Source: Hyphomicrobiales bacterium
Lineage (GTDB): Bacteria > Pseudomonadota > Alphaproteobacteria > Rhizobiales > Rhizobiaceae
Length of the DNA stretch: 47,265 nucleotides
Assembly: GCA_011087605.1 (NCBI GenBank)
Contig: JAALLE010000022.1
Location: 1-47,265 of the forward strand
Direction: 5' to 3'
The translations under genes were made by a program, and so were the position numbers. A model generated the notes under the pieces. That model was given only the letters and a program-made list of their open reading frames with translations, was not told the DNA's origin and made no database searches. Position 1 is the stretch's first letter; each line of letters opens with the position of its first letter. This document shows positions 5,098-28,677 of the stretch, piece after piece.

Positions 5098-7752
5098 ATG
5101 TCCAACCAACCGACCCCGATGATGGCGCAATATATTGAGATCAAGGCGACTTATTCCGATGCATTGCTGTTCTATCGTATGGGCGACTTTTACGAGTTGT
5201 TTTTCGCAGATGCCGAAACAGCATCGCGGGCTTTGGGCATTGCACTGACTAAACGTGGCAAACATCTCGGTTAAGATATTCCCATGTGCGGTGTTCCGGT
5301 ACATGCATCAGATGACTATCTGCAAAGGCTGATTGCACTTGGGCACAGAGTAGCGGTGTGCGAGCAGGTTGAAGATCCCGCGATAGCCAAAAAACGCGGC
5401 TCCAAATCGGTGGTGAAGAGGGACGTTGTTCGCCTCGTTACCCCAGGAACAATCACCGAAGAAAATCTCTTGGACCCGGGCTCTGCCAATATTCTTGCAA
5501 CATTGGCGCGGGTCCGGGGTGGCGAAACCGGCGACCAATATGCTTTGGCAGCAATTGATATTTCGACCGGCACATTCACATTGGCAGAATCTGAAGCCGA
5601 TCAACTCTCGGCCGATATCGCCCGTCTGGCACCCAGCGAACTGGTTGTTGCTGATCGGCTGTTTGATGATGATGATTTGCGCCTCTTGTTTGAAAATCTC
5701 GACTGCACGGTTCAGCCGCAACCTTCGTCGATGTTTGATTCCTCGCGAGCTGCCCAAAACATCCAGGAGTTTTACCAAGTGTCTACGCTGGATGGGTTTG
5801 GCACATTTACGCGGGCAGAACTGGCGGCGGCAAATGCGGCGATTGCCTATATTCAAATAACTCAGATTGGCGAACGGCCTCCGCTGGCGCGACCCGACCG
5901 CAGTGAGTCTTCTCAGGTCCTGTATATCGACGCGGCAACCCGAGCCAATCTGGAATTGATGCAAACACTTTCCGGCAGTCGCGAAGGTGCCTTGCTGAAA
6001 ACCATTGACCGAACTGTGTCCGGCGGTGGTGCCAGATTGCTGACCCAGCGCATGGCTAACCCACTGACCGTGGCGGCGCGAATTGTTGCACGGCACGATG
6101 AAGTTTCGTTCTTTCTTGTTCAGGAAGATTTACGTGGGCAGGTTCGCTCGGTTCTGAAATCAATGCCAGATACCGCAAGGTCTTTGTCCCGGTTATCGCT
6201 GAACCGGGGAGGACCGCGGGACCTGCTGTCGATTAGTCTTGGGTTGAAGACAACAAATGCTCTGGCGGAGTTGATTCAAAACCTTGAACCGGAATTGCCG
6301 ACCAATCTCCATGACAATTTGAACTGCCTGGAAGAAGCTCCAATCGCACTGGCCGATCATTTGGATCAATTGCTTTTCGATGAGGCTCCTTTGTTGGCTC
6401 GTGATGGCAATTTCATTCAAAGCGGATTTGATGCGGAGCTGGATGAATTGCGGCAGCTGAGCAATGAAAGTAAAAAGGTAATTGCCAGCCTCCAGTCGAG
6501 TTATGCCGGGGAAACAGGGGTTAAGAATCTTAAAATCCGGCACAACAACGTGCTGGGATATTTCATTGAAGTGACTGCCTTGAATGCGGCGGCGCTCAGC
6601 GAAGACAAAGAGCGGTTCATACACCGCCAGACCATGGCCAATGCCATGCGATTTACAACGACGGAACTGGCAGAACTGGAAACAAAGATTGCCAATGCAG
6701 CGAACAAGGCATTGCAGCTGGAGCTTGGCCATTTTGCTGAAGCTCAGCAAAAGGTGCTGGCGCAAACCGAGCGGCTTCAGGCCATTGCGCAGGCCATTGC
6801 TGAAATAGATGTTGGTGCGGCGCTGGCCGAATTGGCCCAGGAACAGGGCTATGTTCGACCCGCGATCGACGATGGTCTGGCTTTCGAGATCGTGGCCGGA
6901 CGCCATCCAGTTGTCGAGCAGGCGCTCCGCAAACAGGCGGAAAACCCTTTCGTTGCCAATGACTGTTCAATAGGCGGCACCGATAGTGGAAAACTTTGGC
7001 TGCTGACCGGTCCAAATATGGGCGGCAAGTCTACATTCCTTCGGCAAAATACCCTGATCGTCATACTCGCTCAAATGGGCTCATTTGTGCCTGCTGGTAG
7101 TGCTCATATAGGCATTGTCGACCGCCTGTTTTCACGGGTCGGCGCGGCAGATGATTTGGCACGCGGCCGCTCCACTTTTATGGTTGAAATGGTGGAAACA
7201 GCCGCAATACTCAATCAGGCTGGCTCTCGATCGCTGGTCATTCTAGATGAAATAGGCCGCGGAACGGCAACCTTTGACGGTCTGTCGATTGCCTGGGCAA
7301 CACTTGAACACCTTCATGAAATCAACTGCTGTCGAACCCTGTTTGCCACCCACTATCATGAGCTGACGGCCCTTTCATCTGCGCTTCAGCGCCTGTCGAA
7401 CGTTACGATGAGTGTCAAGGAATGGGACGGTGATGTGGTGTTCCTGCACGAAGTCGTCGAGGGCACTGCAGATCGTTCCTATGGTATTCAGGTGGCGCGA
7501 CTGGCGGGACTGCCTGGCAAGGTGGTTGAACGGGCGCGAAATGTACTTGACCAATTGGAAAGTCAAAATAGAGAAAGTCCATCGAGTACCTTGATCGATG
7601 ACCTCCCCCTGTTTTCTGCTTTACAGGTTGAAGCGAAACCTGCCCCCGTCGGACAGTCAAAGCTGCAGGAAAAATTGGACGGGATTCAGCCAGACGAATT
7701 GACACCGCGTGAGGCGTTGGAACTGATCTATGCGCTTAAGTCAGTTCAATAG
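5098..7752 (+). pseudogene. mutS: mutS, DNA mismatch repair protein, interrupted by in-frame TAA
   Basis: Reading from ATG 5098, the frame runs [20 protein letters not shown], then [10 protein letters not shown], up to TKRGKHLG. It then meets TAA at 5272-5274 (codon 59) and continues without a frameshift as [16 protein letters not shown] through to 7752. Family members have [10 protein letters not shown] here, so one G-to-T change (GAA to TAA) explains the stop. Without it the protein would be 884 residues, a normal length. The mismatch-reading Phe31-x-Glu33 motif lies before the stop; the clamp, lever and ATPase domains ([29 protein letters not shown]) lie after it. Either the strain carries a nonsense allele or the base is a sequencing error. 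Other genes here end in TAA, so codon reassignment is not a likely explanation. Confidence 0.85.
5284..7752 (+). CDS. mutS: MutS remainder downstream of the nonsense codon
   Basis: This is the open 822-residue part of mutS, starting at the ATG three codons after the in-frame TAA. If ribosomes restart here, the product would keep the connector, lever, clamp and ATPase domains and the C-terminal dimerisation region. It would lack the first 62 residues, including the Phe-x-Glu wedge that contacts mismatched bases, so normal mismatch recognition would not be expected. There is no clear Shine-Dalgarno sequence just before 5284. The stop codon overlaps the 3' end of the convergent deoC by 7 bases. 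Confidence 0.6.
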
Positions 7753-27234: not shown

Positions 27235-28136
27235 CGTACAAACATCGTCCCGGCGCCGTGATCGGTAAACAGTTCCAACAACACCGCATGTGGAGCTTTG
27301 CCGTTGACAATGACCACCGCTTCAACGCCCTTGTTGAGAACTTCAATACAGGTTTCAACTTTCGGGATCATGCCGCCCGAAATGGTTCCGTCTTCTATCA
27401 GGTCATGCGCCTGTTTGATGCTCAGCCGCGGGATCAACTTGCCCTGTTTGTCGAGTACGCCGGGAACATCGGTCAAGAACAGAAGTCGATTTGCGCTCAA
27501 TGCGCCGGCAACTGCGCCAGCAAACGTGTCGGCATTGACGTTATAAGTCTCGCCATCAGCGCCAAAAGCCACAGGCGCAATAATAGGTATCAGGCCGGAG
27601 CCAACAACGGTATTAAGCACCGATGTGTCAATCTTTTCCGGCTCTCCGACAAAGCCGAGATCGACAATTTCTTCAATCTTGCTATCGGGATCCCGTTGGG
27701 TGCGGTGCATTTTCTTGGCCCGCACCATATTGCCGTCTTTGCCGCACAGGCCAATCGCCCGGGCTCCTTCGGCGTTGAAATCGGCGACGATATTCTTGTT
27801 GATCAATCCCGCCAACACCATTTCGACGATTTCAACGGTCGCTTTGTCGGTGACCCTCATACCGCCCTTGAATTCGCTTTCGATCCCCATGCGGTCGAGC
27901 ATTGCGCCAATCTGGGGCCCGCCCCCATGAACAACAATTGGCTCGACACCAGACTGGCGAAGCAATGCAACGTCTCGGGCAAAGGCTTTTCCAAGCTCTG
28001 CATCACCCATGGCATGACCGCCATATTTGATAACAATGGTCTTGCCGGTATGGGCCTGCATGTAGGGCAGAGCCTGTGACAGCAGGTGAGTTTGGGTCTC
28101 AGCGTCGATGGTGGGAGGTGCAGAATTCTGGGTCAT
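27231..28136 (-). CDS. argB: Acetylglutamate kinase
   Basis: ArgB phosphorylates N-acetylglutamate in arginine biosynthesis. The 301-residue product has the glycine-rich phosphate loop [10 protein letters not shown], the substrate motif [27 protein letters not shown] and the late [15 protein letters not shown] and [11 protein letters not shown] motifs. The N-terminal extension of about 30 residues is common in the arginine-inhibited hexameric form. It heads a two-gene unit with the HAD nucleotidase and is separated from trxA upstream by a Rho-independent terminator at 28188-28220. Confidence 0.95.
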
Positions 28137-28187
28137 TGGAGTGCAATCGTTGGAGAACGCAATCTTGCTACATCAATTAGGCCACAT

Positions 28188-28220
28188 AAAAAAGCACCCG
28201 ATTCGAATGAACCGGGTGCT
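28188..28220 (-). terminator. Rho-independent terminator of trxA
   Basis: On the reverse strand an 8-base-pair stem (AGCACCCG, bases 28220-28213, paired with CGGGTGCT, bases 28200-28193) has a 12-base loop and is followed by a run of six T (28193-28188). It begins 26 bases past the trxA stop and precedes argB, so it should end the long rsmI-to-trxA block. Confidence 0.85.
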
Positions 28221-28245
28221 ATGTTGGGTTGTTTGGTGTTCAGAA

Positions 28246-28566
28246 TCAGATTTCGTTGGAAATCCAGTCCGACAATTTGTTCTTTGGCGCCGCGCCAACC
28301 TGGATTGCAACAGGTTCTCCACCCTTGAACATCAGCAGAGTGGGGATCGAGCGAATGCCGTATTTGGCTGCCAGGTCGGGATTTTCATCCATATTCACCT
28401 TGGCGATCTTTACCTTGCCGTCCATTTCGGTGGAAATTTCCTCCAGACTTGGAGCGATCATTTTACAGGGGCCACACCATTCTGCCCAGAAATCGACCAC
28501 AACGGGAGTATCGGAGTTCAGAACATCAGAATCGAAGTTTCCGGTGTCGGTTTTCACAGTCGCCAT
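28246..28566 (-). CDS. trxA: Thioredoxin
   Basis: The 106-residue protein is a canonical Trx1-type thioredoxin with the active site WCGPC (Cys31 and Cys34) and the cis-proline in [11 protein letters not shown]. It reduces disulfides in ribonucleotide reductase and other cytosolic partners. GGAG lies six bases before its ATG. It is the last gene of the reverse-strand block downstream of addA, as in rhizobia, but the 111-base gap and the leader hairpin suggest it also has its own promoter. Confidence 0.96.
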
Positions 28567-28581
28567 ATTATGCTCCTAAAC

Positions 28582-28602
28582 GATCCCCGGTTTTGGGGAA
28601 TC
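28582..28602 (-). other. Hairpin in the trxA leader
   Basis: GAT(T)CCCC and GGGGATC can pair, with one bulge and a six-base loop, just upstream of the trxA Shine-Dalgarno. There is no T run, so it is not a standard terminator. It may stabilise the 5' end of the message or be a chance structure. Confidence 0.3.
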
Positions 28603-28677
28603 ACTGTTTGCGCCTCGTTGGGGGGAACGTAGGGAGCCGGACATAGCGGGTCAAGAAGCAGCGGCAGTTGAATCTGT

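Follow-up and report, generated by a model that had tools for sequence, protein, structure and literature searches.

An in-frame stop codon in the only mutS found in an alphaproteobacterial draft genome, a probable very recent null allele

Mutators with defects in mutS or in mismatch repair are already documented in other bacteria. In natural Salmonella deficient in mismatch repair, hypermutation is attributed to the loss of that repair (PMC7225559). Loss of mutS likewise lies behind hypermutation in a delta-mutS strain of Pseudoalteromonas lipolytica, for which an approximately 100-fold rise in mutation rate is reported, with a G duplication in a coding region among the mutations described (PMC10634453). 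The marine Vibrio splendidus 12B01 offers a reported case in which a change inside the mutS of an environmental bacterium affects the mutation rate (PMC5296598). The protein concerned here belongs with MutS1 (TIGR01070 / NF003810; E. coli structures such as 1e3m), which it resembles in its matches at successive profile positions and in its five domains, and from which it differs in that its reading frame is cut at codon 59.

The stretch of DNA that we analysed, hereafter the window, is one whole contig of 47,265 bases. Translation revealed a mutS at 5098-7752 (+) that opens at ATG 5098, runs for 58 residues, meets a TAA at codon 59 (5272-5274) and continues for 825 further residues to TAG 7750-7752 (Table 1). 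A domain search of the whole genome returned the same picture, with one in-frame TAA inside mutS domain I. Beyond the stop, Pfam matches resume with MutS_I at 56-112 and proceed through MutS_II, III, IV and V, so that domains I-V of MutS1 are all present and in order. NCBIfam models NF003810 and TIGR01070 match both pieces at successive profile positions (2-52, or 2-51, and then 57 onward), and the part after the TAA, taken by itself, reaches 757.3 bits, which is over the TIGR01070 equivalog cut-off (641.7). Residues 5-57 of the first fragment align to residues 10-62 of E. coli MutS chains. Judged by these profile matches, the two pieces read as consecutive parts of one MutS1. The TAA interrupts an otherwise intact mutS within its mismatch-binding domain, after the Phe-Tyr-Glu motif. 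This agrees with the preliminary description of the window, which had placed an in-frame TAA at codon 59 in a frame continuous on either side and had held that the Phe-x-Glu motif would be separated from the rest of the protein: F-Y-E (residues 31-33) lies on the 58-residue fragment, and no uninterrupted frame links it to the ATPase.

Table 1. Features of the interrupted mutS, in window coordinates.
Feature	Position	Strand	Basis or remark
mutS first fragment, 58 codons, first half of mismatch-binding domain I	5098..5271	+	Pfam MutS_I 1-51, E 3e-19
Phe-Tyr-Glu mismatch-sensing motif, codons 31-33	5188..5196	+	computed position; in the stretch aligning to the E. coli MutS N-terminus
In-frame TAA, codon 59	5272..5274	+	GAA in the two closest relatives
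mutS remainder, 825 codons plus natural stop: end of domain I, domains II-V including ATPase	5275..7752	+	Pfam, NCBIfam; no further stop
Possible restart ATG, residue 63	5284..5286	+	first in-frame start-type codon past the TAA; no other such codon up to residue 200 is an ATG

For a comparison of codon 59 among relatives, we gathered 111 loci, two of which are the window itself and one of which is cut short, leaving 108 relatives' loci that are all distinct and among which no pair is more than 97% identical in an ungapped comparison. A stop at codon 59 occurs in none of the 108, so this putatively inactivating lesion is absent from close relatives and is more than chance. The position itself is variable, being occupied by 11 amino acids (E 38, Q 24, A 14, D 7, R 7, L 6, H 4, M 4, K 2, T 1, N 1), and codon 59 is therefore not a conserved motif residue; the earlier view that its Glu forms part of a conserved family motif sits poorly with the presence of E in just 38 of the 108 loci. 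Both of the closest relatives, G002 and G010, carry GAA at this codon. Among the genus relatives, 12 of 14 were readable here (10 GAA, 1 GAT, 1 GAC), with G008 cut and G014 not included. GAA is thus the likely parent codon on the evidence of the near relatives, which fits the G-to-T change proposed in the preliminary description, while other single-base routes to TAA are possible in principle, the residue being variable.

At window positions 5271-5272, neither of two neighbouring bases agrees with G002 or G010 (GGC GAA in those relatives, GGT TAA here), a tandem change across the codon boundary in which a base of the preceding Gly codon has changed too. This is probably coincidence, given how common third-position change is on this branch (597 of 4324 four-fold sites).

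The relationship to the sister genome G002 is close enough for gene-by-gene comparison: it is syntenic with window positions 49-47,216 at 82.6-84.6% DNA identity, and its MutS is 91.5% identical in amino acids to that of the window over 884 codons. The nearest named records among the best 80 loci, which include Rhizobiaceae, are at most 64% identical in MutS. The organism appears to be an alphaproteobacterium near Rhizobium-like genomes, whose company also suggests an environmental origin. Across 151 family genomes (its own included), 150 have a MutS domain I match, and among the matches listed only the window's genome has a stop inside; a search of 61 genomes (again its own included) with the part of MutS after the stop gave matches in 58, with no stop among the matches listed.

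Two relatives yielded observations of a separate kind. G014, a 0.9-Mb single-contig genome that is 98% complete in a genus otherwise spanning 2.4-4.8 Mb, keeps mutS, mutL and mutY matches, and its mutS is an open frame of 897 aa. In G110, a 1.9-Mb single-contig genome of the family, mutS domain I (C1:1709632-1709982) lies in an open frame of just 625 aa, and mutS may be interrupted further on.

The draft genome that contains the window measures 4.19 Mb in 177 contigs and is 97.9% complete. Searches of it gave one match to PF01624 and one to the MutS protein and no second MutS, although at this completeness a copy may have been missed. MutL is a 653-aa open frame collinear with MutL of G002 and G010. 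The MutY frame is also open, and a MutY match over the cut-off without a stop is present in 15 of 15 genus genomes, this one included, which, as far as MutY is concerned, argues against lost oxidative-damage repair as the source of the G-to-T change. No 16S rRNA was found in the draft by a search that succeeded in just 9 of 14 control genomes, and tRNA-Ala and tRNA-Ile, along with some other tRNAs, are absent from the 34 tRNAs found. The lack of 16S and of these two tRNAs suggests a metagenome bin or a fragmentary short-read assembly.

We consider it moderately probable that the TAA is a real and very recent loss-of-function allele of the only mutS found, present in the sequenced strain or in most of the sampled population, and of a known kind. 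Translation would halt after 58 residues, and the resulting fragment, with its Phe-Tyr-Glu and no ATPase or dimerisation domains, could not be expected to act as MutS, judging from the domain layout; any product restarted at ATG 5284 would be without the mismatch-sensing Phe. Mismatch repair would then be off despite an intact MutL, and the strain would be a mutator with a raised mutation rate. What the sequences show directly is the stop, its absence from relatives, a single MutS, open MutL and MutY frames and no long-term mutator signature; the reality of the base, the loss of protein function and the rise in mutation rate are inferences.

The age of such an allele is constrained by the changes on its branch. 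We polarised substitutions in 29 genes with G010 as the outgroup and compared the window's branch with that of sister G002. Four-fold changes number 597 against 605 and transitions 293 against 308, so no excess of either was detected on the window's branch over these 29 genes; bootstrapping over genes puts the transition ratio within a 95% range of 0.78-1.12. Residue changes are equally balanced (274 versus 280), with 21 and 16 branch-specific residue changes in mutS for the window and the sister, respectively. The ratio of residue to four-fold changes in mutS shows no difference from that in the other genes (p 0.60), and by this comparison with its neighbours no relaxed constraint was detected in mutS, which is what a null allele of very recent origin would give. 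From the 95% bound on transitions, the share of the branch spent without repair would be no more than about 1.4%, 0.25% or 0.12% for a rate rise of 10-, 50- or 100-fold, respectively. The missing substitution footprint therefore means that the stop is either very young or not real. Of the earlier suggestion that the strain is a mutator, the version in which that state is established conflicts with these counts, with no excess of substitutions or transitions, and the version in which it is very recent is compatible with them.

The same counts suit a second explanation, which we hold possible rather than probable: that the TAA is not the organism's own state and is instead a consensus base error, or a minority-strain allele taken up by the assembler, in a natural population with an intact mutS. 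The lack of relaxed constraint and of excess substitutions or transitions fits a mutS that worked until very recently, and a fragmentary draft of 177 contigs that resembles a metagenome bin speaks against a real allele, since its consensus base may be an error or derive from a minority strain. G-to-T changes, moreover, are a known class of oxidative sequencing artefact, into which the proposed change falls. Against a base error of this class, G>T and C>A changes together at four-fold sites are barely higher on the window's branch than on the sister's (163 versus 137, p 0.15), as are G>T changes alone (85 versus 63, p 0.08).

The rest of the genome bears on this explanation more directly. Within the window, 37 other genes have matches in G002 that are free of stops, although the ends of the compared stretches split two of these matches (a spurious ORF at 28108-28632 was excluded). 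When G002 ORFs were compared with the window, mutS alone among the window's genes was stopped well within a conserved alignment; in four others the stops fall no later than codon 14 of the G002 ORF, which we read as start-site differences. In a larger sample, the window and a further 436,675 bases of its genome were compared with 358,106 bases of G002. From 320 G002 ORFs, 214 were matched at no less than 70% identity (71,393 aa compared), 194 of them intact over at least 85% of their length, and mutS presented the sole clean deep nonsense codon with conservation on both sides.

The 20 non-intact rows comprise mutS, a frameshift at an 8-G run, a gene with two 1-base frame changes, a large repetitive case at a stretch end, six matches truncated where a stretch ends (in one of which a stop also falls close to the start), a gene stopped some 6 residues short of its end and nine genes with stops near the ORF start. 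Three of these nine were inspected: in two the stop precedes the well-conserved part, which fits a start-site difference, and the third (L198:6695-7414), which at 77% identity has its stop at 31 of 239, is ambiguous. In the other direction, 413 ORFs gave 210 matches, 193 of them intact, and the 17 other rows hold no clean equivalent of the mutS case: five are stretch-end cuts, two are complex indel cases and five have stops near the start (in the two inspected, these precede the conserved part); a further two are stopped at their extreme end, two are partial matches, and the last, which carries two stops, is probably a false ORF. A scan for stops by codon score missed even the mutS stop, and its near-empty result was discarded.

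With mutS as the lone clean deep stop among 214 matched genes, 194 of them intact, the sample shows no draft riddled with false stops and argues against a generally high rate of substitution error. By a rough weighing, a consensus error that creates a stop in mutS and the sampling of a natural mutS nonsense mutant would be similarly improbable, except at a very low error rate; a real allele is favoured over error because other false stops are scarce in the sample.

Loss of mismatch repair favours frameshifts at homopolymer runs, and two such lesions at poly-G runs occur in this genome. In a DUF1499 gene (L183:4932-5949, minus strand, contig C160), one extra base at an 8-G run causes a frameshift in a gene that is intact in G002, possibly through recent homopolymer slippage or sequencing error. 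In an MmyB-like helix-turn-helix regulator (L179:18987-19807, contig C96), assessed without a G002 counterpart for comparison, the frame changes at a 7-G run and the ligand-binding domain is cut there; the second piece of this gene matched 6 plasmid records at less than 60% identity, and 1 of the 4 shown is annotated as a helix-turn-helix regulator. A short gene on contig C33 (L169:556-1162), intact in G002, carries two 1-base frame changes relative to it and is a possible pseudogene. The reverse comparison, for frameshifts in G002, revealed two complex indel cases and no simple one.

At G/C runs of at least 7, frame switches occur at 2 of 11 here versus 0 of 5 in the G002 sample, and at A/T runs of at least 7 they occur at 0 of 42 here versus 2 of 38 in G002, both of the latter being gene boundaries. 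Of 14 long homopolymer runs checked, one was flagged at a frame switch, and a second, below that threshold, proved on rechecking to be an intragenic frameshift. At a lower threshold, further runs show switches in both genomes; the eight sites viewed, which leave out window:8554, four runs of L115 in G002 and switches at 5-base runs, consist of the two frameshifts here and six natural gene boundaries, of which two belong to this genome and four to G002. A count of two poly-G frameshifts here and none in the smaller sample of the sister, reached after looking and with small numbers, is no significant excess. The two lesions could be a weak footprint of repair loss or homopolymer sequencing error, and they suit consensus error equally well as they suit repair loss.

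A third explanation accepts the stop as real and supposes that the cell still makes a useful product, either by suppressor-tRNA readthrough or by restart at ATG 5284, which would give an 822-aa MutS without the sensing motif; we regard this as very improbable. In its favour, the variability of codon 59 over 11 amino acids means that most inserted residues would be tolerated, and the ATG lies just 9 bases past the stop codon. As for readthrough, on which the preliminary description had suggested the strain might depend, no tRNA with a UUA anticodon is present among the 34 found, a set that is incomplete (Ala, Ile and others are missing); this goes against nonsense suppression, as does the absence of any other sampled gene with a clean deep in-frame TAA that would hint at it. 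Restart fares in a mixed fashion: the codon named earlier is indeed a possible start codon in frame, with no Shine-Dalgarno-like sequence before it (at best 3 of 6 matches to AGGAGG), an argument of little weight because the normal start at 5098 matches at just 2 of 6. By family, we take the Phe of the window's motif to be the equivalent of E. coli Phe36. E. coli MutS F36A is reported not to bind a G-T mismatch (PMC3437207), and the restarted protein would be without this Phe, which is required for mismatch binding. Readthrough or a useful restart is unlikely. A fainter prospect still is a carrier that makes MutS from ATG 5284 with sensing off and dimerisation and ATPase kept, so recent that only homopolymer frameshifts have begun to appear.

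An old, established loss of mismatch repair in the lineage, to which the stop and the two poly-G frameshifts elsewhere might point, is hardly credible, since domains II-V are intact under unchanged constraint, the polarised four-fold changes and transitions match those of the sister and speak against a long-term mutator, and under a 10- to 100-fold rate rise the time without repair would not exceed about 1.4% to 0.1% of the branch.

If the stop is real, as we favour, this genome adds a further natural mutS-null mutator, from an environmental alphaproteobacterium and at a very early stage that precedes damage across the genome. Otherwise, it illustrates how a single draft consensus base can make a repair-proficient species an apparent mutator on paper. 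Under either outcome, knowledge of mismatch repair itself is unchanged. Compared with V. splendidus 12B01, where a mobile element is reported to bring along a promoter and translation start of its own and its excision leads to hypermutation (PMC5296598), the present locus has a base change only, with no insertion seen in it. Compared with the Salmonella and P. lipolytica mutators, the lesion here is a single nonsense codon, known from sequence alone. Set beside these systems, the mutS stop is of an ordinary kind, probably a very recent null allele in an alphaproteobacterium.
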